A stretch of 41,952 nt of DNA from a virus. Where the stretch lies: IMG/VR virus record IMGVR_UViG_3300023292_000020, positions 1 to 41,952 of that record. The stretch is one strand, 5' to 3'. This document shows, in pieces, positions 15,123 through 33,429 of the stretch. Positions within the stretch are counted from its first letter, which is position 1. Each line of letters starts with the position of its first letter. The position numbers and the translations under genes are program-made. Under the pieces are notes generated by a model that saw only the letters and a list, made by a program, of their open reading frames with translations, was not told where the DNA came from and ran no database searches.

Positions 15123-16631
15123 TTAACCCTTGGTCTTTTTGGTCAGCATCGGCGGCGGGGCGTCACCGTGCTGTTGCAGGATGGTTGCGGCGGAAGCGCC
15201 GGCTGAAACGCGGGAAGCGAGGTGGCGGTACATAGCATCAACCGACGCGAATGACGCTGCGGCGGCGACCTCTTCTTGCTGTGCGATGGGCAGGTTGATG
15301 AGCATGGCGGCGGTTTTCGGATCGATCGCTTGCGCGCCAACCAGGGCCGACAGCTCACCAAACGACATCGTCGGCGGAAGGTTCACGTCCTCGGTCGCAA
15401 TGCGTTCGTTCTCGAAATCCGGGTCTAGGCCACGGCGGGTCATCCAAGTGTAACGCGACATCGCCCCGGACAGGTACATTTCCCGGTCCTCGCGCGCAAC
15501 CCATTCCTCGTCGTCCACACTGAGCCCGGTGAACTGGTAGCTGACTTTCGCGTCGGCGTCGATTCCCGCTTGAGCTAAAATCTCGGGGTCGAAGAACCAA
15601 TCGAGCAATTCGCGGATCATCAGCGTGTCGTGAATGATTTGGTAGCGGCTGGCCTTGAGCAATACGCGAGCCCCGGCCAAAGCCGAAGCGCCGTCAACGA
15701 AAAACGTCTGGAAGCCGAGCGCCCAGCAAATCCGCGCCACCTGGAACTTCATGCGCGGCGGAACGTCGATGATCGCGCCTTCCGCGCCGTAGGTTTTCAC
15801 GTCCCAGTGCCACGGGGCGACAAGGGCTTCCTCGTTGGTCAGCGCGTCCAGTTTCGTCTTGGCATCGGTTATGTCCGCCGCTTTGGGATTCACGAACGTA
15901 TTGCCGAAAATCCCGCCAATCTTGAGAATGCGAATCACGGTGGCGAAGCGCCGGGCGAGAGTGTTTTCCGCCTTGCCGTAGTTTTGATACGTCACGATTG
16001 CCGGGAAGGCTTGGAGCGTGGCGGGTTCGCCGCGGGTGTCCCAGTCGTCGGCGTCGTTGCGCAGAACGAAGAAGTTTTCCAGGTCGATACCGGACCATTC
16101 GGCGATCTTCTTCGCGCCAACCCCGGCCACGCCGTCATACTGAGTCAGCGACGTGATTTCGTCGTCTTCCATCGTGTAACTGACAGAGAGGTTGTTTATC
16201 AGCCGCAGCTTCTTGAAGTCGCTGCCGTCGAAACTTTTGAAGGCGATTCCTTCGCCGGATTCCAGGCAATTATGGAACGCCTTGCTCATGCGGCTATTCA
16301 CCTTGAACTTCTGGGCGAACTCCCGAAGCCGTTCCGTCGCTGCCGGGTCTCCATCAACCCGCAGTCGAAGTCCGTCGCCGATCACAAACGTGCGCCGCAA
16401 GTTGATGAGCATTTTCAGCACATCGACGTTTTTCGCGTATTCCCGAGACTTCTTGACCCGGTCGATCCAGTTTTTTGGAACCGAGACTTCGCTGGTGCCT
16501 GTCGCGTTGCCGTAGGGATTGATCGCCGCGGCGACGGCAGAGACGTTGGCTCGAATTTCGCGGAAGACCGTCGGCGCACCCGTGGCGTTGATAGCGGATT
16601 TCAGAAGGCCGGGTTTTTTCTCTCGGGGCAA
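15123..16631 (-). CDS. Portal protein
   Basis: This protein of about 502 aa is followed by MuF and the prohead protease. It shows portal-like segments: VPKNWIDRVKKSREYAKN near the N-terminus, the W-D-T-R-G-E-P-A-T-L-Q-A-F region, an N-T-F-V-N-P-K segment, and a clamp/stem region with a long helical C-terminus. It forms the dodecameric DNA channel. The first possible codon is a TTG at 16661 with no ribosome site. I prefer a TTG at 16631, which has AGGGGGAG five bases upstream. The alternative would add ten residues. Confidence 0.8.
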   Translation of the reverse strand: MPREKKPGLLKSAINATGAPTVFREIRANVSAVAAAINPYGNATGTSEVSVPKNWIDRVKKSREYAKNVDVLKMLINLRRTFVIGDGLRLRVDGDPAATERLREFAQKFKVNSRMSKAFHNCLESGEGIAFKSFDGSDFKKLRLINNLSVSYTMEDDEITSLTQYDGVAGVGAKKIAEWSGIDLENFFVLRNDADDWDTRGEPATLQAFPAIVTYQNYGKAENTLARRFATVIRILKIGGIFGNTFVNPKAADITDAKTKLDALTNEEALVAPWHWDVKTYGAEGAIIDVPPRMKFQVARICWALGFQTFFVDGASALAGARVLLKASRYQIIHDTLMIRELLDWFFDPEILAQAGIDADAKVSYQFTGLSVDDEEWVAREDREMYLSGAMSRYTWMTRRGLDPDFENERIATEDVNLPPTMSFGELSALVGAQAIDPKTAAMLINLPIAQQEEVAAAASFASVDAMYRHLASRVSAGASAATILQQHGDAPPPMLTKKTKG

Positions 16632-16702
16632 AGTGGCTCCCCCTGGCTCAAGTTGCGCCAAGGGTTAGCGGGTATCGGGGCGTTTGCTATTGGTAGGAGA
16701 TT

Positions 16703-20392: not shown

Positions 20393-20751
20393 CGGCCACG
20401 TTTGCCGAAGTAATCGCGGAATTTAGGAAACTCGAAAACTCGCGGATCCTGAACATCATCAACCGCAACGTTGACCTACAGCAAATCGTCTCGGCTTGGG
20501 GCGACGATGTTCTCCAGCCGCGTGAGGCTCCCGGGGCGCTTGCCGACGGCGCAACGATCGAAGACAAATGGGAATGGATCTGGAAACACGTCGCGGTGGA
20601 TTTTGAGACGCTTCAGGCGTCGTCCGGGACGTTGAACGTTGTCCCGAAGTTCAAGCAGGCCTTACGCCTTCGCATGATCTATCCTGACGGGACCGTTCAC
20701 AACTGGGCCGAGACTCAACTCCTTGAGATCGCGAAGCGCGGACAGAGCTAG
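20389..20751 (+). CDS. Hypothetical protein coupled to large terminase (120 aa)
   Basis: The ATG overlaps the terminase TGA (ATGA), with GGGAGGG upstream. The product starts MTATFAEVIAEFRKLENSR, is helical in the first 40 residues, and has a W-E-W-I-W-K-H-V aromatic segment near the middle. No domain is recognised. Coupling to terminase suggests a packaging or head-related role. It ends 4 bases into the convergent zinc-ribbon gene, so the two operons meet tail to tail. Confidence 0.7.
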   Translation: MTATFAEVIAEFRKLENSRILNIINRNVDLQQIVSAWGDDVLQPREAPGALADGATIEDKWEWIWKHVAVDFETLQASSGTLNVVPKFKQALRLRMIYPDGTVHNWAETQLLEIAKRGQS

Positions 20752-21065
20752 ACCGCCCTACCCCCGCCACCAACCATCAAAAGCTGTTCGCTGTCGTCTT
20801 CTGTTTCCTGCGGCGCCGTAAGGTGCTGGCTGTCTCTGTCGTAGCTGACGAACGGCCGCGCGACGCGCTCGAATAGTCCTTCGTCGCCCGAGCCCTTCCG
20901 CCTCTTCTTTTTCGCCGTTTCATCGCGCCGGCCGTCGAACGTAAGCTGGGATCCCCGGTCCTCGCAGACGCCGAAGCACTTGAGGCACCGCCACTCCCGG
21001 CCCCTTTTGCCCGCGGGCACGGTGGTCCCGCAGGTTGGGCAGTATTTCTTGGCAGGTTCCGGCAT
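20748..21065 (-). CDS. Zinc-ribbon hypothetical protein (105 aa)
   Basis: The frame begins MPEPAKKYCPTCGTTVPAG and carries a two-knuckle zinc ribbon: C-P-T-C-G then, 17 residues on, C-L-K-C. After that come a Lys/Arg-rich stretch (K-K-K-R-R-K-G-S-G) and an acidic tail. The start at 21065 has AAGGGGG upstream. It was the second gene of the operon whose first gene is now split by the IS1595-type element, so its transcription may be interrupted by the insertion. The function is unknown. Confidence 0.65.
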   Translation of the reverse strand: MPEPAKKYCPTCGTTVPAGKRGREWRCLKCFGVCEDRGSQLTFDGRRDETAKKKRRKGSGDEGLFERVARPFVSYDRDSQHLTAPQETEDDSEQLLMVGGGGRAV

Positions 21066-21097
21066 CTCACACCCCCTTAGATTTTGCGAAAGAACTC

Positions 21098-21113
21098 GGC
21101 CGCCGAAGCGGCC
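21098..21113 (-). other. GC hairpin with TTCG loop in leader of zinc-ribbon gene
   Basis: On the minus strand, GGCCGC-TTCG-GCGGCC forms a perfect six-pair stem with a UUCG tetraloop. It lies between the stop of the interrupted gene (21127) and the zinc-ribbon start (21065). No T-run follows, so it is not a clear terminator. It could stabilise the mRNA or separate translation of the two genes. Confidence 0.45.
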
Positions 21114-21126
21114 CCGCGCGCAGCGG

Positions 21127-21258
21127 CTAACTGAGGATCTGGCGATGGTCGCCCGGGAGAACAACTTCGCCCGGCCACTGGACCGTGAGCACGCCCTCGG
21201 GCACGCCGTGCTCGATCAAAAATTGCTTGGCCACCTGCTCGGCCAGGTCTTTCATCTT
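21127..21258 (-). pseudogene. 3' fragment of phage gene split by the IS element
   Basis: This is the C-terminal part of the gene whose 5' part is at 25006-25211. Joining the two parts and keeping one copy of the 8-bp duplication gives an uninterrupted 109-aa frame ending in TAG at 21127-21129. The junction reads A-A-Y-K-K-M-K-D-L-A-E-Q-V-A-K-Q-F. The C-terminal half is helix then strands (G-V-L-T-V-Q-W-P-G-E-V-V-L-P-G-D). The function of the intact protein is not recognised. This fragment has no ribosome site and should be silent. Confidence 0.85.
21251..21258. repeat. Target site duplication, left copy
   Basis: TTCATCTT directly abuts the left inverted repeat and recurs as TTCATCTT at 25006-25013 directly after the right inverted repeat. 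Eight bases is the duplication length usual for IS1595-family elements. Confidence 0.92.
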
Positions 21259-21283
21259 CGGAATGTCCCAGTTTACGGTAGCG
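21259..21283 (+). repeat. Left terminal inverted repeat of IS1595-type element
   Basis: It starts CGGAATGTCCCAGTTTACGG and matches the reverse complement of 24981-25005 at 24 of 25 positions. The single mismatch is the second-last base (C against T). The -35 box of the transposase promoter begins nine bases inside it. Confidence 0.92.
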
Positions 21284-21291
21284 TTTTTCTC

Positions 21292-21320
21292 TTGACAAGC
21301 GGTTTTCCCCTTGCTACACT
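21292..21320 (+). promoter_or_regulatory. Promoter of transposase / cargo operon
   Basis: TTGACA (21292-21297) and TACACT (21315-21320) are separated by 17 bases, just inside the left inverted repeat. It should drive transposase, P63C protein and methyltransferase as one message, because the genes are adjacent or overlapping. Confidence 0.8.
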
Positions 21321-21354
21321 GTCCTTGTAAGTGGTAGTGAAAACGGAGAAACCA

Positions 21355-22224
21355 ATGAACATCACAACGATTTTTGAAACCTTCCCGACGCAAGAATCCT
21401 GCATAGAACACCTTGAAAAAGTTCGATGGAGCGGCAAGCCCTCCTGTCCCTATTGCCGCTCGCAGAACACAACGCCGATGGTAAACGAGAAGCGGCACCA
21501 TTGCAACAACTGCAATACGAGTTTTTCAGTTACAGTTAGAACAATTTTTCACCATACCCACCTTCCCCTTCAAAAGTGGTTTCTGGCCGTTTCGCTCATT
21601 TTAAACGCCAAGAAGGGAATTTCATCGCGGCAACTAGCACGCGACTTGGGCGTTCACCGTAACACGGCTTGGCGAATTTCTATGCAAATCAGAAATGCCA
21701 TGACCCAAGTACATCAGCGAGAATTGCTCGTTGGCTTGGTTGAAGCAGACGAAACTTACGTTGGTGGCAAGCCAAGAAAGAGAAGTGGGGGAGAAAAACC
21801 GAAACGTGGACGCGGAACCAAAAAGACTCCGGTATTTGGCGTTGTCGAGCGTGGTGGGAATGTCAAAGCCGAAGTAATTAGGGATCGCAACCTTTCTTCT
21901 AAAAGGATTTCCGCCCTAGTGCGCCGCCACGTTGACGTGAAAAACTCCGTTTTGGTGACAGACGAGTTCAAGGGCTATATCGGGATCAAGAAGTTCATGC
22001 CACACAAAACCGTAAATCATCAAGTTTGGTACGTTGACGGTGACATTCACACCAATTCCATCGAATCGTTTTGGGCGATTTTGAAACGGGGGATCGTCGG
22101 ACAATTCCACAAGGTCAGCGTTCGCCACCTTCCGAAGTACCTGGATGAGTTCTGCTTCCGATATAATCACCGTGGAATCGAAGACGTGTTCGATCTGACA
22201 ATCGCCTTAGCAGTAGGAGTGTAG
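21355..22224 (+). CDS. IS1595-family (ISXO2-like) transposase
   Basis: The product is 289 aa. The N-terminus has the family zinc ribbon: C-P-Y-C-R-S near 33 and H-H-C-N-N-C-N near 50. A helix-turn-helix follows (S-S-R-Q-L-A-R-D-L-G-V-H-R-N-T-A-W). The ISXO2-like DDE catalytic domain shows G-L-V-E-A-D-E-T-Y-V-G-G, V-L-V-T-D-E-F-K-G-Y and H-T-N-S-I-E-S-F-W. It ends with the family motif F-C-F-R-Y-N-H-R. The length is full for the family and no break is visible, so it is probably active. The start at MNITTIFET (21355) has CGGAG upstream. It is followed 3 bases later by the P63C gene. Confidence 0.93.
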   Translation: MNITTIFETFPTQESCIEHLEKVRWSGKPSCPYCRSQNTTPMVNEKRHHCNNCNTSFSVTVRTIFHHTHLPLQKWFLAVSLILNAKKGISSRQLARDLGVHRNTAWRISMQIRNAMTQVHQRELLVGLVEADETYVGGKPRKRSGGEKPKRGRGTKKTPVFGVVERGGNVKAEVIRDRNLSSKRISALVRRHVDVKNSVLVTDEFKGYIGIKKFMPHKTVNHQVWYVDGDIHTNSIESFWAILKRGIVGQFHKVSVRHLPKYLDEFCFRYNHRGIEDVFDLTIALAVGV

Positions 22225-22227
22225 CCA

Positions 22228-23157
22228 ATGAGCGAAGTAGAAAAAATCCACGAAGCGGTATGCGGGTCGGCTGATCGACCCTTACAAGTCGGAGACATAG
22301 AGATTCCATGCTACGTATTGGATGACGACACCAGAGTCGTGGTGCAGCGCGGAATGGTTCAGGGCCTCGACATGAAATACGGGGGGTCTGCAAATGGTGC
22401 TGACCGACTTAGCCGTTTTGTCAGAGGAAAAGCTGTTTCCGCCTATATTTCCGAGGAGTTATCGGCGCTGATCGACAGCCCGATTAAATTTAAGACCAGC
22501 GGTGGAGTTGCCTATGGGTATCCGGCTACAGCATTAGTAGACATCTGTGAAGCGGTCTTAGCCGCAAGGGCAGATGGTGTTCTCCAAGAACAGCAAATGC
22601 ACATCGCGCAAAGGTGCGAGATTCTTGTTCGCGGTTGGGCTAGGGTCGGAATAATCGCCCTAATCGACGAAGCAACCGGCTTCCAAGATGTTCGCGCCAC
22701 AGGCGCATTGGCAGAAATATACGAAAAATTTCTAGCCAAAGAATTGCAACCCTGGACAAAGACATTCCAAGACAGTTTTTACAAGAATATTTTTGACCTA
22801 AACAGATGGCCATATACAGCCGAATCTATCAAAAGGCGTCCAGGCGTTATAGGCCGATGGACGAACGACATTGTTTATGACCGTTTGGCACCTGGCGTAA
22901 AAGTCAAATTACATGAATTTGTCGGACGCGACCCTACGGGCCGATTGAGGGCGCGGCTTTTTCAAGGATTGACTAAGGACGTAGGCTACCAAAAACTTCT
23001 TGAGCACCTCGCCGCAGTTCAGGCACTAATGAAGGCCGCTACATCCTGGAAGGGGTTTATGCGATTACTGGATCGCGCGCTTCCCCCGTTCCCGAAGGTT
23101 GGCGACACATACCGATTGCCGTTGCCGAAACCAAATGATGATAAAGATAATGAGTGA
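22228..23157 (+). CDS. P63C-domain protein (transposon passenger)
   Basis: The product is 309 aa. The C-terminal part from about residue 190 matches the P63C domain, named from a phage protein: N-R-W-P-Y-T-A-E-S-I-K-R-R-P-G-V-I-G-R-W, then V-Y-D-R-L-A-P-G-V, then H-L-A-A-V-Q-A-L-M-K-A-A and F-M-R-L-L-D-R-A-L-P. The N-terminal half begins with an I-P-C-Y-V-L-D-D-D-T-R-V-V segment. The biochemical function of the family is not established to my knowledge. It lies between transposase and methyltransferase and overlaps the latter, so it is expressed with both. Whether it serves transposition, regulation or defence cannot be told from sequence. Confidence 0.85.
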   Translation: MSEVEKIHEAVCGSADRPLQVGDIEIPCYVLDDDTRVVVQRGMVQGLDMKYGGSANGADRLSRFVRGKAVSAYISEELSALIDSPIKFKTSGGVAYGYPATALVDICEAVLAARADGVLQEQQMHIAQRCEILVRGWARVGIIALIDEATGFQDVRATGALAEIYEKFLAKELQPWTKTFQDSFYKNIFDLNRWPYTAESIKRRPGVIGRWTNDIVYDRLAPGVKVKLHEFVGRDPTGRLRARLFQGLTKDVGYQKLLEHLAAVQALMKAATSWKGFMRLLDRALPPFPKVGDTYRLPLPKPNDDKDNE

Positions 23158-24130
23158 ACAAAGCGGGAATAACATGAAAAACACAACGAATAAAATCGGT
23201 TCCTTTGCAATCAACCAAGTGGCAGAAGGCGATTGCTTTGCTCTTGCTGAAAGCTTACCAGAAAATAGCATTGACATTGTTGTAACAAGCCCTCCATATT
23301 GGGGCCAACGCACATCGATGGGAAATGGCGTCGAAACGGACCCACGCGATTACGTCTTGTCGCTGGCACAGGTCTTCTCTGTTCTCTTGAAAAAATTGAA
23401 GCCTCAAGGCGTTGTTTGGATCAACATTGGAGATGCTTACAATACGCCGGTAAATTGGCGAGCCGATGACCATGAATACAGTACGTTGGGTCCAGAGCGG
23501 AACGGACTAGACCCGAATAACTCGGCATACACAAAACCACGCGCACGTCGAAAGGCATTTATCGACAAAACGCAGCCTTGGCTTACCTACGGAAACTTGC
23601 TCGCGCTTCCGTACCGGATCGTAATTGAATTGTGCAACGCGGGATACTTGTTCCGTGGTGAAGTCATCTGGCGTAAAAGGAATCCGATGCCGGAAGGACG
23701 CTGCCGCCGACCGCATCGGGCGCATGAGTCGATTTATCTTCTAGCCAAGCAAGAGGATCATTTTTTCAAGACGACACCTCCGGTAAAGACGGTTTGGGAA
23801 TTTTCGAACGAAAAAATCGCCGGTCCAGCTCATTTTTCAAGATTTCCAGAGGAGCTTCCAACCAGATGTGTTGACGCCTACGGCATTAGGGGAGCAGATG
23901 TTGTGGTACTTGATCCGTTTTCTGGTTCTGGGACCACAGGTATTGCCGCGCGAAAACTCGGTTGCTCTTTCATCGGGTTTGAAATCGACCATGAGCATGT
24001 CTTGTCATCAAATCTTCGGCTTGGTCTAGTTTCGGAAGACCAGCAATCTTCAAAAGAAGAGACGAAAGATCAGCGGGATTTTTTTGGCCGTTTGTCTTCC
24101 AGCCTTCCTGCCAAGAATCGCACGAGTTGA
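23150..24130 (+). CDS. Type II DNA methyltransferase, SPPY motif (N4-cytosine type)
   Basis: The product is 326 aa. Motif IV V-V-T-S-P-P-Y-W-G-Q is near residue 46 and motif I D-P-F-S-G-S-G-T-T-G near 265. This order IV...I is of the beta class, and SPPY is typical of N4-cytosine enzymes. The start at ATG 23150 overlaps the P63C stop. An alternative ATG at 23174 has a GCGGGA site and would remove eight residues. The last 61 bases overlap the convergent restriction gene. It is the protective half of the transposon-borne restriction-modification pair; the recognition sequence cannot be read from the protein. Confidence 0.88.
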   Translation: MSEQSGNNMKNTTNKIGSFAINQVAEGDCFALAESLPENSIDIVVTSPPYWGQRTSMGNGVETDPRDYVLSLAQVFSVLLKKLKPQGVVWINIGDAYNTPVNWRADDHEYSTLGPERNGLDPNNSAYTKPRARRKAFIDKTQPWLTYGNLLALPYRIVIELCNAGYLFRGEVIWRKRNPMPEGRCRRPHRAHESIYLLAKQEDHFFKTTPPVKTVWEFSNEKIAGPAHFSRFPEELPTRCVDAYGIRGADVVVLDPFSGSGTTGIAARKLGCSFIGFEIDHEHVLSSNLRLGLVSEDQQSSKEETKDQRDFFGRLSSSLPAKNRTS

Positions 24131-24921
24131 TCTGGTTCTTCATCGAACAATGACAGGGTGAAAATACGCTTGCCCGATTGCGTCTTGGCGGGACTTGGCG
24201 GCGTTCTAAGATTGAAGGAAAACAAGCCGTCAAATTGTCCATCTACTTCGATATAGTTGCGTTTTAGCCTTGCTTTTTCGACCCCAAAACTCCGCCCGCC
24301 CAGTTCGCCATAATTTACGCAGTTTCCGTGCGGTGGTGGATAGCTCTTGGCGTCCATCGTGATAGCGATTGAAACAAAACCACGATCCATGAAAGCTCGA
24401 CTTGCTGGTACGTCATCTTGAATACGCTCGGCGATGCTCGACTTGACGTGCGCCGCCCCCAAAACCAACCAACCCTGTTCGCTTTGGTTTTTCAGAAATA
24501 AATCTACCTTGGTCGCCTTTACGTCCGTAATTCCTAGGCCCATCAGCGCTTTGTTTGCTTCGGCGGCGGGCAAAATCTGAATCTGAATCCCAAAAGGCAA
24601 AAGCCTTGGTGCATAAATTTCGACAATGGCGCGCTCCAAGGCAAATCCAGAAACCCGCTTCCATCGCTGGTCACTCCAACCGAGTTCAAGCAAACGGCGG
24701 TAAATTACGTGTTGCCAGAGGTCGCTTGGGTTCGCTTTCGGGCTTTCTCTGGCGACCACCACAAAAGCCTTCGCAACGGCATCTGATACTTGTTTTTCTG
24801 TAGTCAGAAGGGCACTGAGTCGATCATGCGCTTCGCGCACCTGTAGGTCGGTAATGTTATCGACCTCAACCCACTGAGACGCAACGCCTCTTTGAGACGA
24901 ACGGCATTCAAGTTTTGCCAT
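24070..24921 (-). CDS. Type II restriction endonuclease, BsaWI-like
   Basis: The product is 283 aa. The core segment K-V-D-L-F-L-K (about 145-150) followed by L-G-A-A-H-V-K-S-S-I-A-E-R-I and D-D-V-P-A-S-R-A-F-M resembles BsaWI-type restriction enzymes. The D...H-V-K portion would supply the metal-binding D and K of a PD-(D/E)xK site. T-M-D-A-K-S-Y-P-P-P and Y-G-E-L-G-G-R follow, also as in that family. It pairs with the convergent methyltransferase. There is no Shine-Dalgarno site: a promoter at 24930-24958 would start mRNA about at the ATG (24921), suggesting leaderless, weak translation. Specificity is unknown; BsaWI-type enzymes cut CCGG-core sites. Confidence 0.78.
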   Translation of the reverse strand: MAKLECRSSQRGVASQWVEVDNITDLQVREAHDRLSALLTTEKQVSDAVAKAFVVVARESPKANPSDLWQHVIYRRLLELGWSDQRWKRVSGFALERAIVEIYAPRLLPFGIQIQILPAAEANKALMGLGITDVKATKVDLFLKNQSEQGWLVLGAAHVKSSIAERIQDDVPASRAFMDRGFVSIAITMDAKSYPPPHGNCVNYGELGGRSFGVEKARLKRNYIEVDGQFDGLFSFNLRTPPSPAKTQSGKRIFTLSLFDEEPDQLVRFLAGRLEDKRPKKSR

Positions 24922-24929
24922 GTGAGGCG

Positions 24930-24958
24930 ATAATGATTGGTCCGAGAAGCAAAGTCAA
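24930..24958 (-). promoter_or_regulatory. Putative promoter of restriction endonuclease
   Basis: On the minus strand, TTGACT (24953-24958) and CATTAT (24930-24935) are 17 bases apart. A transcript would begin about at the endonuclease ATG, leaving little or no leader. It is inside the element, between the endonuclease and the right inverted repeat. Confidence 0.5.
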
Positions 24959-24980
24959 CCATTGCAATGATGGAGTTATT

Positions 24981-25005
24981 CACTACCGTAAACTGGGACA
25001 TTCCG
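24981..25005 (-). repeat. Right terminal inverted repeat of IS1595-type element
   Basis: It reads CACTACCGTAAACTGGGACA and ends ATTCCG at 25005 on the plus strand. It is the inverted partner of 21259-21283 with one mismatch, and is followed directly by the second target copy. Confidence 0.92.
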
Positions 25006-25013
25006 TTCATCTT
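25006..25013. repeat. Target site duplication, right copy
   Basis: TTCATCTT directly follows the right inverted repeat and is identical to 21251-21258. Confidence 0.92.
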
Positions 25014-25211
25014 TTTGTACGCGGCCTGGATGACGGCTCCGCGTTCGTCGGTCATCGGTGCCGGCAGGGTCTCTTCGTCGAGGCCGCCGCACGAGATCGT
25101 GTCAATCTCGCCCCTCACGCGGTACTGGTGTGTTTGATTACCAGTCGCCGCGGTGTGAAGGTATCCGATAATCCGCTGGATCGTTTTGTCTTCGCAAACA
25201 TAAGCGCTCAT
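25006..25211 (-). pseudogene. 5' fragment of phage gene split by the IS element
   Basis: It begins MSAYVCEDKTIQRIIGYLH at ATG 25211, with AAGGGAG upstream and a promoter at 25267-25295. The intact protein would be 109 aa with its 3' part at 21127-21258. Today the frame reads across the inverted repeat into the element and stops at 24804, overlapping the endonuclease start out of frame. The 41 intact N-terminal residues before M-T-D-E-R-G include T-A-A-T-G-N-Q-T-H-Q-Y-R-V. The function is not recognised. Confidence 0.85.
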
Positions 25212-25266
25212 TTGATGCTCCCTTTTGTGGTTTGGCTTTTGGTGGGTGTTTGTTTCATCTGATATA

Positions 25267-25295
25267 AATGTAACACCTGCGTTAGCATAAGTCAA
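25267..25295 (-). promoter_or_regulatory. Sigma-70 promoter upstream of the interrupted gene
   Basis: TTGACT (25290-25295) and TACATT (25267-25272) on the minus strand, 17 bases apart. The box GTGTTACATTTATA overlapping the -10 is almost the same as in the integrase-operon promoter at 18714-18741, so a common regulator is likely. After the insertion this promoter points through the truncated gene toward the endonuclease gene. Confidence 0.75.
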
Positions 25296-27749: not shown

Positions 27750-27986
27750 CTATCTGTCCGACTTGGCGGGGCGGTCGGGAAACCAGTCGACCGGCCCCGG
27801 ATCGTGGGATCTACCAAGGGGCATGGAGGGCTTGTGGCCCCCGTGGGTGGTGACGGGTTCGCCGCGCCGTAGGTCATTCCCGGCTTTTTCTCCCGAATTA
27901 CATGGCGTTTGCCCCGTCCATCGCCGGTAAAAGTCGCCACCGCACGAATTCCAGAACCACATTAGGCGGTCTTTCAAGTCATTCAT
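27750..27986 (-). CDS. Hypothetical protein (78 aa)
   Basis: The start at ATG 27986 (MNDLKDRLMWFWNSCGGDFY) follows the thermonuclease stop region, overlapping by 8 bases. The N-terminal 25 residues are amphipathic and aromatic. The rest is Gly/Pro/Arg-rich, ending P-V-D-W-F-P-D-R-P-A-K-S-D-R. A start at 28079 would add 31 residues inside the nuclease gene. No domain is recognised. Confidence 0.55.
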   Translation of the reverse strand: MNDLKDRLMWFWNSCGGDFYRRWTGQTPCNSGEKAGNDLRRGEPVTTHGGHKPSMPLGRSHDPGPVDWFPDRPAKSDR

Positions 27987-28617
27987 CGCCCTTGCTCCCA
28001 TACCTACTCCACCGGGCGAAGGCGAAGCGGTCATAGCGTTTGGCGAGCTTCGCGTGAACCATTTCCAGGCCGATGTCATCGCCGTCCAGGTCGACGTAAG
28101 CCAGCACGCGGCCGTATTTGTCCTCGCGGTTGGAAAGCGGATCGTGGGTCAATGTGACGCGCTTCCCGGTGATTCTGTCGCGGAGCCAATCGGTAGCCTC
28201 CACCGCGCCGGGCTGGGCCGGTTTGCCGCGTCTGGCGAGTTCCGGGGTGTCGATGCCCACGATGCGCACGGTGACGGTCTGCCCCGTGCTTTCGAGCGTG
28301 GCCTTGATCGTGTCGCCGTCGATGACGCGGGTGACGGTGGCGAACCCCGGCCAGTTGAGCGATTCATCGACCGCATATGCCAAATCTTCGATGACAGAGT
28401 CTGCGCTTTCGAGAACGCCGATCATTTCAGCGTGGCGCGCTTTCGCTGCGGCCCAGGCCTTCGTTTCGGCGCGATGGCTCATACCAGCCATGACGAACGA
28501 CACGGACAGCAGCGCGGCGACCACCCACAATGTAACGGTGTGCACAACCCGACCCCATCGAATCGACCGGATGAACAGCGCCAAACGAGCGCGGATCGTG
28601 CTGATGGTGATTGTCAT
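27979..28617 (-). CDS. Membrane-anchored thermonuclease-like protein (SNase domain)
   Basis: The product is 212 aa. A single hydrophobic segment (T-V-T-L-W-V-V-A-A-L-L-S-V-S-F-V-M-A-G, about 28-46) after a basic N-terminus anchors it in the membrane. Residues 92-200 are a staphylococcal-nuclease fold: A-T-V-T-R-V-I-D-G-D-T-I-K-A, then V-R-I-V-G-I-D-T-P-E with catalytic R and D, then N-R-E-D-K-Y-G-R-V-L with catalytic E/D and R. Key residues are present. It could act on incoming or host DNA at the envelope. It is translationally coupled to the gene at 28614. Confidence 0.85.
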   Translation of the reverse strand: MTITISTIRARLALFIRSIRWGRVVHTVTLWVVAALLSVSFVMAGMSHRAETKAWAAAKARHAEMIGVLESADSVIEDLAYAVDESLNWPGFATVTRVIDGDTIKATLESTGQTVTVRIVGIDTPELARRGKPAQPGAVEATDWLRDRITGKRVTLTHDPLSNREDKYGRVLAYVDLDGDDIGLEMVHAKLAKRYDRFAFARWSRYGSKGDE

Positions 28618-30749: not shown

Positions 30750-31101
30750 TGGTATTTCCTGACAATTGGATCGCCTCCCTGGCTTGGTCATAAATTGATT
30801 CACTTTCGGCTTTGTCCGCCGGTTCGCCGGTCTCAAGCCACCGCTCGATGTTCTCCGTGAACCGCAAGCACGCGGAGGTCAGCGCGGCGTTTCCCGCCCG
30901 CATCCGATCCACCTCGGCTTCTGTGTCCGCCAACTTGACGGTCAACTCAGCCACTTTAGCCTCCCCAAAACACCCCTCACAAAACGGCCCGTCGCCATTT
31001 TCGGCGTAGAGCGAGTCCTCATAGATTCCCGACGCGCCGGTCGGTTCGCCGCACTTGGTGCAATGTTCCGCACGCTGAGCGTCAACGTCGATTATTGGCA
31101 T
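30736..31101 (-). CDS. Zinc-binding coiled-coil hypothetical protein (121 aa)
   Basis: The start at ATG 31101 has AGGAGG seven bases upstream. The N-terminus has a split zinc site, H-C-T-K-C-G-E-P and F-C-E-G-C-F, near 13 and 40. It is followed by a heptad-like helix (K-V-A-E-L-T-V-K-L-A-D-T-E-A-E-V-D). The same two-part C-x-x-C then coiled-coil layout appears in phage accessory proteins of unknown role. The ATG overlaps the preceding stop (TGATG). Confidence 0.7.
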   Translation of the reverse strand: MPIIDVDAQRAEHCTKCGEPTGASGIYEDSLYAENGDGPFCEGCFGEAKVAELTVKLADTEAEVDRMRAGNAALTSACLRFTENIERWLETGEPADKAESESIYDQAREAIQLSGNTNDQT

Positions 31102-31355
31102 CACCACACCTCCTGTTTGTATTCAGCGCCGATCAGCGCGTTTAGGTTCCGTTCGCTATCCAGTTCCGCACCCGCCTCCACCGTCACGTTCCACAGCCGC
31201 AGCCCGCCAAGGGCTTGCACGCGGATTGATCCGTTCGGCCACAGGTAGTGTGCGCGGGCAATCCCGTCCACGCCAATGCACCGATACCACGGGGTTTTAT
31301 CCACCTTCGGCGCGTAGCTGAATGGGCGTTGGCCGAAGATCGGCTGGTTATTCAT
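31101..31355 (-). CDS. Hypothetical protein sharing a C-terminal module (84 aa), copy 1
   Basis: The start at ATG 31355 (MNNQPIFGQRPFSYAPKVDK) has AAGGGG upstream. The segment S-Y-A-P-K-V-D-K-T-P-W-Y-R and the end A-G-A-E-L-D-S-E ... Y-K-Q-E-V-W are shared with the C-terminal 70 residues of the membrane protein at 32541-33338, and partly with the 45-aa product at 31562-31699. This indicates local duplication. The module is beta-like with regular aromatic residues; its role is unknown. Confidence 0.7.
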   Translation of the reverse strand: MNNQPIFGQRPFSYAPKVDKTPWYRCIGVDGIARAHYLWPNGSIRVQALGGLRLWNVTVEAGAELDSERNLNALIGAEYKQEVW

Positions 31356-31561
31356 CAACACATCCCCTTGGGCTTGCTCACCGGGGGCGCCGCCCGAAAC
31401 GAGGTACACGTGATTTTCATGCCCTCTTTGTCAAAATGAAGGTTTGGGACAAGCTCGCCGGGGTTGAAAACGTTGTGAATGCAGTAGTCGTTTTTGCACT
31501 CATTCCCCTTTTCATCCGCGCACGATAGGTGGCCAACGAAAGCCGCCGTAACCCTAGTCAT
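31355..31561 (-). CDS. Small hypothetical protein (68 aa)
   Basis: MTRVTAAFVGHLSCADEKGN begins the product. It contains C-A-D-E-K-G-N-E-C-K-N-D-Y-C-I-H, a His/Cys-rich patch, then a F-N-P-G-E-L-V-P-N-L-H strand. The ATG touches the previous stop and the stop overlaps the next start (TGATG). No family is recognised. It lies between copies of the shared module. Confidence 0.65.
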   Translation of the reverse strand: MTRVTAAFVGHLSCADEKGNECKNDYCIHNVFNPGELVPNLHFDKEGMKITCTSFRAAPPVSKPKGMC

Positions 31562-31699
31562 TCAAAACACCTCCTGCCGGTAGGTAACTCCAGCCACTAG
31601 ATTTGCGTCTTCGGTTGAATCAATTTCCGCCCCGCCGTGGATGCCAACCTGCCACATGCGGAACCGGCCGGATTTGAGGGGTGCCAGATCACGCCGCAC
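31562..31699 (-). CDS. Short protein with truncated shared module (45 aa), copy 2
   Basis: A GTG at 31699, after G-G-A-A-G-G, opens a 45-codon frame that ends at 31562-31564. The product R-R-D-L-A-P-L-K-S-G-R-F-R-M-W-Q then ends G-G-A-E-I-D-S-T-E-D-A-N-L-V-A-G. Its last 33 residues match the end of the membrane protein at 32541-33338 (A-G-A-E-L-D-S-E-Q-D-A-N-L-V-A-G). It looks like a truncated duplicate, either a mini-gene or a remnant. Confidence 0.55.
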   Translation of the reverse strand: MRRDLAPLKSGRFRMWQVGIHGGAEIDSTEDANLVAGVTYRQEVF

Positions 31700-32264
31700 C
31701 GCCTTCCTGGGCCGCTTCGCTCAGCACTTTAATAGTGCGTGCTAATTGCCACTCACGCTCGGCGACGGCGTAGGCGGCGGCGGCGGCGTAGGCGGCGTAG
31801 GCGGCGGCGGCGGCGGCGGCGTAGGCGGCGGCGGCGGCGGCGTAGGCGGCGGCGGCGGCGGCGGCGGAGAGGGCGGCGGCGTCGGCGGCGGCGGCGGCGG
31901 TGCTCCGCTCCTTATCCGTTGCCTCGCCTCGTAACCACTTCCGCGTTACGTCAATCGCCAGCCGTGAGCGGCCCTCATTCCCCGCCCACGACTCCGCGAT
32001 TGCCAATACTCGCTCTGCGTAGTCGCATCCAAGACCAACCCTCACCGATTCCGGTAGCACGCCCCTTTTCAAAACCACCCACAGCCGGTCAGAGATGGAG
32101 ATTTCGTCCATTGCCAGGATGTCGCCCAGGGTTAGCGTTTCACGCCCGGAGAAAATCCGTGCGATCCGCTCCGGGGTGTAGTTTCTCCCATCGTCATTGC
32201 CGTCCAGCCCGCACGGTTCGAGGGCTATTACATCAGCTTGGGCCAATTGTTTGTTGATTAGCAT
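31689..32264 (-). CDS. Ala/Tyr-repeat helical protein, Imm5-like pattern (191 aa)
   Basis: The first 110 residues are ordinary: RIARIFSGRETLTLGDI, then L-G-C-D-Y-A-E-R-V-L-A-I-A-E-S and a R-K-W-L-R-G-E-A-T segment. Residues 120-168 are nearly pure Ala with Tyr at intervals (A-A-A-A-A-A-Y-A-A). The end is E-R-E-W-Q-L-A-R-T-I-K-V-L. The C-D-Y-A-E...L-R-G-E-A-T plus Ala/Tyr helix layout resembles proteins annotated as putative Imm5-type immunity proteins. A paralogue with the same ending enters the window at 41850-41952. The role in phages is unknown. The repeat DNA (31767-31900) is liable to length change. Confidence 0.7.
   Translation of the reverse strand: MLINKQLAQADVIALEPCGLDGNDDGRNYTPERIARIFSGRETLTLGDILAMDEISISDRLWVVLKRGVLPESVRVGLGCDYAERVLAIAESWAGNEGRSRLAIDVTRKWLRGEATDKERSTAAAAADAAALSAAAAAAAYAAAAAAYAAAAAAAYAAYAAAAAYAVAEREWQLARTIKVLSEAAQEGGAA
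31767..31900. repeat. GGC-triplet low-complexity tract (poly-Ala coding)
   Basis: Long runs of GGC/GTA triplets on the plus strand encode poly-Ala with Tyr on the minus strand. Plus-strand frames here give meaningless poly-Arg or poly-Gly. A similar tract ends the window (41920-41952). Confidence 0.85.
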
Positions 32265-32338
32265 TTTTCACCCTCTTCTTTTTGCGGCGTCGCCGCATCC
32301 GCCCGCGCCTGAATCTCGTTCAACTCTTGGTCGGTCAT
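32258..32338 (-). CDS. Very short protein, possible remnant (26 aa)
   Basis: ATG 32338 overlaps the previous stop and the frame ends 32258-32260, overlapping the next start. The product is MTDQELNEIQARADAATPQK followed by E-E-G-E-K-C. The beginning matches the common phage pattern in which '...ARADAATPGPW' continues into a domain of about 100 residues. Here it breaks right after A-T-P, so this may be the surviving start of a deleted gene. Confidence 0.45.
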   Translation of the reverse strand: MTDQELNEIQARADAATPQKEEGEKC

Positions 32339-32541
32339 CGGCTGTTGTCCTTTTTATCCGGTCCGATAATCCAACCGTCCACCGTATTCACCTTGTGCCC
32401 GGCTCGGCATTGGCCGTTGATTTCTCCGCACGGGGCTAGGTCTTCAACACAGCACCCGCACTCATCGTCGTACCAGAGCCCGTCGAACCCGTTGGCCCCA
32501 AGGTACTCCGTCACAATTTCAAGCACCGTTTTACCGCTCAT
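32335..32541 (-). CDS. Hypothetical Cys-containing protein (68 aa)
   Basis: ATG 32541 overlaps the upstream stop (TGATG). The product has T-V-L-E-I-V-T-E-Y-L-G-A-N-G-F-D-G-L, then C-G-C-C...L-A-P-C-G...Q-C-R-A-G-H-K, and ends W-I-I-G-P-D-K-K-D. This composition is familiar from small phage proteins with no known function. The four-Cys pattern suggests metal binding. Confidence 0.7.
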   Translation of the reverse strand: MSGKTVLEIVTEYLGANGFDGLWYDDECGCCVEDLAPCGEINGQCRAGHKVNTVDGWIIGPDKKDNSR

Positions 32542-33338
32542 CAAAAAACCTCCCGCCGGTACGAGAGCCCGGCCACTAAGTTTGCGTCCTGTTCACTATC
32601 GAGTTCCGCCCCGGCGTGGAGGCCGACGCGCCACAAGCGCACCTCGGCGAGCGCGCGGGCGCGGAGCGTTTCATCGGGCCAGGCGTAGTCAATCGTCGCC
32701 ACGCCGTCCAAGCCGACCCGGCGATACCACGGGGTTGTGTCGACCTTCGGCGCGTAGCTCAGTTCGTAGTCGCGAACGGCGACGTTGATCGGCACCGCCA
32801 CCCCGTCGCGGTCGGCAAACATGAGGTCGACCGTCTCGGATTCCAACACCCCGCGCCGCTGCCGTATCCCGGTGATCGTGAGCGAGGCTTGAAGGTCAAG
32901 GGCGAGCGTCGTCTGTGCCCCGGCGTCGAACACGTCCGGCGTGCTGAACTCGTACCAACTCGTTCTCGCGGTGTAGGCCCCGGCCGGTGTCGCCGTCGAT
33001 GCTGCCGGTGATTCGACGGTGCCGGTGAGGTCGGCAAGTAGTCGCGACTGTCTGTGGATCTCGATGTCGCGTGAGCCGAGCGCGTGGCGTAGCCGTTCAA
33101 GCGTAACGGTGTTCGCGTCGTTCAGCGCCCGGAGCGTCGTCACGGTTGACCGGGATTTCCGGATAACTGAATTCGCCGTCACCAGCGCCCGCTCTGATTC
33201 GCTGAGTTCGCCGCGAAGCTGCCGGGCGATGGTGTCCAGTTCGAGCCGGCCGGCGTGCTTGGCATATGCCGCATAGGCGAGGAGCGCCGCAAGGGCGATG
33301 ATCGCGGCGGTGGCAATGGCGACGGCGAGGCGGTTCAC
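32541..33338 (-). CDS. Membrane-anchored coiled-coil protein with shared C-terminal module (copy 3, full length)
   Basis: I place the start at a GTG (33338), directly after the stop of the 29-aa membrane gene, giving 265 aa. An ATG at 33392 is possible. A signal-anchor (AVAIATAAIIALAALLAYAA) opens the protein, followed by a coiled-coil about 30-110 (Q-L-R-G-E-L-S-E-S-E-R-A-L). A beta-rich domain about 130-200 precedes the last 70 residues, which carry Y-A-P-K-V-D-T-T-P-W-Y-R. It probably sits in the inner membrane with its bulk outside the cytoplasm. Neighbouring genes repeat parts of its C-terminus. A spanin-like or superinfection role is possible but unproved. Confidence 0.65.
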   Translation of the reverse strand: MNRLAVAIATAAIIALAALLAYAAYAKHAGRLELDTIARQLRGELSESERALVTANSVIRKSRSTVTTLRALNDANTVTLERLRHALGSRDIEIHRQSRLLADLTGTVESPAASTATPAGAYTARTSWYEFSTPDVFDAGAQTTLALDLQASLTITGIRQRRGVLESETVDLMFADRDGVAVPINVAVRDYELSYAPKVDTTPWYRRVGLDGVATIDYAWPDETLRARALAEVRLWRVGLHAGAELDSEQDANLVAGLSYRREVF

Positions 33339-33339
33339 C

Positions 33340-33429
33340 CTACCGCCCCACGACCCACGCCAGGACCACCAGCGCGCCCAAAATTGAGACAAACGAGAGG
33401 TAAACGAGGGCTTTGCCGGGGTCGTTCAT
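33340..33429 (-). CDS. Single-pass membrane mini-protein (29 aa)
   Basis: ATG 33429 overlaps the upstream TGA (ATGA) and has an AAGGTGG site. The product starts MNDPGKALVYLSFVSILG and is nearly all one hydrophobic helix ending V-V-G-R. It sits immediately before the membrane-anchored coiled-coil protein, with one base between. The pair could act together at the membrane; a holin-like role would be speculation. Confidence 0.6.
   Translation of the reverse strand: MNDPGKALVYLSFVSILGALVVLAWVVGR

Follow-up and report, generated by a model that had tools for sequence, protein, structure and literature searches.

Three genes on the minus strand of the metagenomic virus record IMGVR_UViG_3300023292_000020, here called A, B and C, end in copies of one protein module. 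We analysed the full record, which is possibly a fragment, and refer to this whole stretch of 41,952 bases as the window. The explanation that we prefer, and that we regard as evenly poised between right and wrong, is that A is a working envelope protein and that B and C are truncated paralogues under relaxed constraint, which arose from an old duplication or recombination of the 3' end. The three ends are homologous, their borders in the DNA are sharp, the shorter ones are truncated and there are three copies only; B and C are coding-like, and their protein sequences have changed faster than that of A. Only its layout makes a role for A in lysis plausible. The case is ordinary in kind, a partial duplication with decay in a mosaic phage operon.

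Gene A (32541..33338, minus strand) encodes 265 amino acids from a GTG start, or 283 from an alternative TTG at 33392, and its product comprises an N-terminal membrane helix, a helical stretch, a middle region and the C-terminal module, whose 72 codons and stop (32541..32759, minus strand) run from S-Y-A-P-K through the C-terminal F. Gene B (31101..31355, minus strand) encodes 84 amino acids from an ATG (MNNQ...), a GTG at 31409 being a possible alternative start, and consists of the whole module (31101..31319, minus strand), in which 39 of 72 residues match A, preceded by 12 further residues at the N-terminus; it has no membrane segment. Gene C (31562..31699, minus strand; 45 amino acids from a GTG) carries a partial module (31562..31666, minus strand; 34 codons and stop, with 22 of 34 residues identical to A) that corresponds to the last two predicted strands and thus to the second half only. 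A preliminary description of the window had termed both short copies free modules, which is correct for B, the whole module alone, but not for C, which is half a module. It had also spoken of neighbouring genes: the three are close, within 2.2 kb, but not contiguous, as other genes lie between them.

The similarity of these ends, which that description had pointed out by eye, is borne out by alignment. Local alignment scores were 225 (A-B), 131 (A-C) and 87 (B-C), whereas 2000 shuffles per pair gave maxima of 54 (A-B; mean 28.8), 47 (A-C) and 44 (B-C), so that 0 of 2000 reached any observed score. Repeats are also present in the DNA, where 31264-31319 in B and 32704-32759 in A share 56 nucleotides (nt) at 84% identity and 31619-31660 in C and 32598-32639 in A share 42 nt at 81% identity. 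The segment S-Y-A-P-K-V-D-[TK]-T-P-W-Y-R is present in A and B only, as had been claimed. A profile of the three copies, a check proposed together with the original observation, was run over the six-frame open reading frames (ORFs) of at least 20 residues in the window; it matched the three ends at E 9e-47, 1e-46 and 3e-19 and nothing else below E 0.6, and unrelatedness of the ends was not upheld. Because the same three sequences built the profile, their own matches show only the absence of a fourth copy. Chance similarity is ruled out by the shuffles and the profile search.

The borders of the repeated unit are abrupt. Over 30-nt intervals, A-B DNA identity rises from 0.37 to 0.77-0.87 at the start of the module and drops to 0.20 right after the stop. 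The stretch of likeness, which ends at the stop codon, is about 220-240 nt long in A-B and about 120 nt long in A-C and B-C; over the 30 bases past the stop, identity is 0.13-0.27 in all three pairs. Since likeness starts inside the genes and ends at the stop, the repeated unit is the gene end, of which C has a shorter copy. The low identity past the stop rules out duplication of a cassette made up of the module plus the next gene. Recent tandem duplication is likewise rejected because synonymous divergence (dS) is too high, at about 1 for A-B and 0.8 for A-C. The DNA repeats, the sharp borders and the divergence of the branches support the suggestion, also made earlier, of repeated duplication or recombination at this spot.

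Protein divergence is spread unevenly over the copies. The pairwise ratio of nonsynonymous divergence (dN) to dS is 0.36 for A-B (72 codons), 0.36 for A-C (34 codons) and 0.60 for B-C (34 codons). Over the 34 codons shared by all copies, branch dN is 0.02 for A, 0.45 for B and 0.25 for C, and branch dN/dS is 0.06, 0.57 and 0.66, respectively. The dN of C exceeded that of A in 97.7% of 2000 codon bootstraps, and the dN of B did so in 100%.

A finding that goes beyond the original repeat observation is that each module end contains the ribosome-binding site of the gene after it. On the minus strand, GGAGG occupies 32549..32553 in A, 31570..31574 in C and 31109..31113 in B, each time inside the gene end, and the ATG of the following gene comes 7 nt (32541), 8 nt (31561) and 7 nt (31101) later, respectively; stop and start overlap as TGATG after A and B and touch after C. 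The motif is written in the module's shared E-V codons (GAG-GT) in 3 of 3 ends, and the genes that follow A, B and C are not alike by eye. Lying within the last codons and 7-8 nt from the next ATG, the motif gives the protein end a second role as the ribosome-binding site for the gene that follows.

In A, the strongest hydrophobic stretch is N-terminal (residues 4-22; 19 residues, mean hydropathy 2.48), and an AlphaFold model from the three-row alignment, with a mean predicted local distance difference test (pLDDT) score of 47, has helices 3-41 and 47-86 and ends in strands. The membrane anchor that had been assigned to the longest copy is thus supported by hydropathy and by the N-terminal helix of this low-confidence model; the coiled coil assigned to the same copy is weakly supported, by helix 47-86 in the model and by heptad power at p 0.03, 0.06, 0.07 and 0.10 in the four segments tested. 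The helical region matches phrog_5975 at E 4e-4 (0.00041; unknown function) and phrog_3899 at E 0.02 (unknown), and residues 28-107 of the 283-residue form weakly match phrog_89, an Rz-like spanin, at E 0.007 (0.0073). With 0 cysteines, A has no lipidation signal. Hydrophobic export segments are absent from B and C, in which the best 19-residue means are 0.52 and 0.17.

The structure prediction proposed in the preliminary description gave, for B, an AlphaFold model (three-row alignment) with four strands at 27-38, 43-54, 57-66 and 71-79 and a mean pLDDT of 58 in the best of five models and 34 in the worst. At this low confidence, the module may be a four-strand sheet and C its last hairpin. 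Hydrophobicity alternates along the module beyond shuffled expectation in A (p 0.005) and B (p 0.01) and not significantly in C (p 0.12); among strands marked by hand, 5 of 10 alternate at p < 0.05, and strands 1 and 4 do so in no copy. The C-terminal residue is F or W in all three copies.

In the explanation that we prefer, A would be anchored in a membrane by its N-terminal helix, continue in a helical stretch and end in an amphipathic beta domain. It would probably serve in the envelope at lysis, and its layout would resemble that of an i-spanin. At this locus, duplication of the 3' end of an A-type gene, or its re-import from a relative through recombination, would have happened two or more times, and the copies would have been truncated, B to the whole beta module and C to the last hairpin. 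B and C would since have been under relaxed constraint, and may have been kept partly for their last codons (GAG-GT), the ribosome-binding site of a tightly coupled next gene. Loss of the end of B or C would then silence that gene, which may be a partial reason for their persistence.

Several results weigh against this explanation. B and C keep coding-like codon use, with coding scores of 0.42 and 0.21, respectively; A scores 0.40 in frame and below 0 in its five other frames, the first 11 codons of C (outside the module) score -0.02, and the 95th percentile of wrong frames is 0.114 on this yardstick, which was trained on 12 genes with none left out when scored. Residues kept in the copies also exceed neutral simulation, in which the observed identity was reached in 1 (A-B), 4 (A-C) and 9 (B-C) of 5000 runs, although constraint on A alone would yield part of this excess. 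The branch ratios are rough, as the dS intervals over 34 codons are very wide, extending below zero for A and C, and only the direction of the branch difference is therefore firm. GGAGG is also found ahead of other genes in this phage, among them those for the sheath and the major head protein, and at least 18 minus-strand starts carry it at this spacing, some of which are surely not genes; it is thus the ordinary strong ribosome-binding site of the genome and not special to the module. Finally, the window proteins scanned, a subset of the ORFs, included no recognisable endolysin, holin or o-spanin, which leaves a lysis role without support from the neighbours.

It is possible, if doubtful, that each copy came in on its own from a related phage through recombination at a gene end, so that the array records mosaicism and not duplications. 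The large synonymous divergence, older than a fresh tandem duplication, and the different DNA adjoining the modules would both fit such imports, but the collections searched yielded no convincing relative that carries the module and hence no known donor. Pattern searches gave no relative of A or the module in viral_contigs, genome_contigs or phages (the last gave only three records, at E 2 to 5), and 0 viral contigs carried a pattern that matches 3 of 3 window copies; these searches need exact short peptide patterns, so that distant relatives can escape, and records close to the window may be excluded. One weak plasmid match covered A residues 157-280 (E 0.1, 33% identity, a repeats-in-toxin-type protein). 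Viral contig L004 had no match to the module, and the module profile gave nothing below E 1.8 on stretches of contigs L004-L008 (1500 bases each of L005 and L006). There were 0 matches by sequence in PDB at E 10, none in NCBIfam for B and C and one for A at E 0.13, and literature searches gave nothing on the architecture of A among the papers listed. DUF6808 (PF20647), which we take to be a phage family with a transmembrane, coil and beta layout, had 0 matches at E 10 in the window (control found in 3 of 14 genomes, none above the cut-off, and therefore weak), was absent from the Pfam matches at E 1 and had no match in two Bacteroides phages chosen as positive controls either. As far as these searches reach, the module appears to be new in sequence.

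We think it unlikely that B and C are small proteins kept by selection, whose free beta modules would join that of A, or one another, and so tune the oligomer. Their open, coding-like frames and the residues kept beyond neutral simulation argue for selection, as would the predicted retention in C of the last two strands (57-66 and 71-79 in B numbering) as a self-contained hairpin. However, overlapping starts and embedded ribosome-binding sites can account for the open frames, and the protein sequences of B and C change faster than that of A. As they have no export segment, B and C would putatively occupy a different compartment from A's module if the C-terminus of A is periplasmic; a meeting would need a cytoplasmic C-terminus of A or an encounter before export. 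The lack of an export segment and the faster protein change also leave the idea of competition or regulation by small soluble versions, raised in the preliminary description, with no support.

We consider it improbable that A is a one-protein envelope bridge, in which an inner-membrane helix and a periplasmic stalk would lead to four C-terminal strands, a trimer of which would form an outer-membrane barrel like that of a trimeric-autotransporter anchor. The predicted four-strand meander, the alternating hydrophobicity in A and B and the F or W end of all copies would be compatible with such a bridge, and anchors of trimeric autotransporters rank high in structure searches. The Hia and AtaA anchors occupy rows 1, 2, 3 and 5 of the Foldseek PDB list (E 0.12 to 0.45), and VIA-align scored AtaA at Z 6.7 (55 residues, root-mean-square deviation 1.6), Hia at 6.4 (54, 1.7) and YadA at 5.4 (54, 2.2). 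Among the BFVD matches listed, 3 of 50 are named YadA-like. However, no Foldseek match reaches E 0.001 in BFVD or PDB, so that the bridge would draw on non-significant structural matches; the best are at 0.034 (BFVD, an uncharacterised protein) and 0.12 (PDB). The top VIA-align row is a methyltransferase (Z 6.9), showing that unrelated sheets score as high as the anchors, and likeness to an autotransporter anchor is therefore a lead only. The modest pLDDT of even the best B model and the alternation of just half of the hand-marked strands also count against the bridge, as does the YadA_anchor profile (PF03895), which had 0 matches at E 10 in the whole window (control found in 7 of 14 genomes, one above the cut-off) and was absent at Pfam E 1. 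The hydrophobic register of the module's last strand is, moreover, one residue off what we take to be the outer-membrane C-terminal signal. We give very little credence to a bolder version, in which A would be the prototype of an unrecognised lysis-protein class with a barrel end of the trimeric-autotransporter kind and a polarity opposite to that of unimolecular spanins, and B and C would poison or time assembly as free barrel units, their genes translationally coupled to the next ones; if true, it would supply the outer-membrane-protein type of spanin that PMC6139136 names as a possible o-spanin for phages without recognisable spanins.

Read along the minus strand, the order of the genes is A, C, B. 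Directly before the GTG of A ends a 29-residue frame (33340-33429, minus strand) with one strong hydrophobic helix (hydropathy 2.48) and a coding score of 0.46. Between A and C lie a 68-residue gene, a 26-residue reading frame and an Ala-rich gene, and between C and B lies another 68-residue gene. The first of these, directly downstream of A (32335..32541, minus strand), is unlike the genes after B and C by eye; the last, directly downstream of C (31355..31561, minus strand), overlaps the start of B with its stop, and neither 68-residue gene has a Pfam or PHROG match at E 1. The 26-residue frame (32263-32343, minus strand), between A's neighbour and the Ala-rich gene, scores as coding in one frame (0.51), has no phage match and is possibly another gene remnant. 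The Ala-rich gene (31689-32264, minus strand), whose end C overlaps by 11 nt, encodes a protein with an Ala/Tyr tract written in a 141-base triplet repeat, with an Arg-rich open frame on the opposite strand; its product matches phrog_38757 (E 4e-8, unknown function) and, below the Pfam cut-off, Imm5_like (E 2e-4).

Profile matches for tail sheath, tape measure, head morphogenesis, major head and terminase proteins identify a contractile-tail phage, and further matches are to a DnaB helicase, a RuvC-like protein (with no match in viral_contigs), a Clp-type protease, a ParB-like protein and a tyrosine integrase. No tRNA and 0 Rfam families were found in the window. A, C and B sit in a packed minus-strand run of small genes between the replication genes and the ParB-like gene, and the host would, we infer, have a Gram-negative envelope. 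A 512-residue protein (15123-16661), with no Pfam or PHROG match and no match in phages or genome_contigs, is presumed to be the portal on position only. The terminase is 100% identical over 547 residues to that encoded at 768-2408 of L004 (4390 bases) and also matched three distant phages. Near its gene, a lower-GC island (49-56%) at 20748-25295 contains an IS1595-family transposase (21331-22224; 38-44% identical to the best plasmid matches among those listed), a DNA methylase (23099-24130) and a BsaWI-type restriction endonuclease (24070-24921), and is probably restriction-modification cargo. A Staphylococcal-nuclease-type protein (27979-28617, minus strand; E 4e-14) has a hydrophobic N-terminal stretch by eye and is possibly a membrane-tethered phage nuclease.

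Among known systems, A shares with the two-component i-spanins (lambda Rz type, PHROG 89) a single N-terminal membrane helix followed by a helical stretch, but it differs from them in its long beta-rich C-terminus with a repeated module, and the phrog_89 match is weak. PMC6139136 reports more than 120 i-spanins without a predicted coiled coil. No lipoprotein partner was recognised; of the 10 candidates from a crude lipobox scan of all six frames, none lay within 30.5-34.5 kb on the minus strand. A unimolecular spanin (T1 gp11 type) likewise has a beta-rich region outside its membrane helix, according to PMC6139136; unlike it, A has no N-terminal lipidation cysteine, and its membrane helix is N-terminal, not C-terminal. 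The trimeric-autotransporter anchors (YadA, Hia and AtaA) would be alike in four C-terminal strands, by a structural resemblance that is not significant, but A has a membrane helix where the passenger stands, and no profile match.

Partial gene duplications and mosaic gene remnants occur in tailed phages, and B and C resemble these: both are shortened copies of a 3' end, lie next to the full gene and have sharp borders in the DNA. They differ in that each copy here ends in the ribosome-binding site of the next gene. If A is a working envelope protein and B and C are its truncated, relaxed paralogues, the locus would be a clear small case of how, in packed phage operons, a protein end is copied along with a ribosome-binding site, and would suggest that a protein remnant can be retained for the start signal that it carries.

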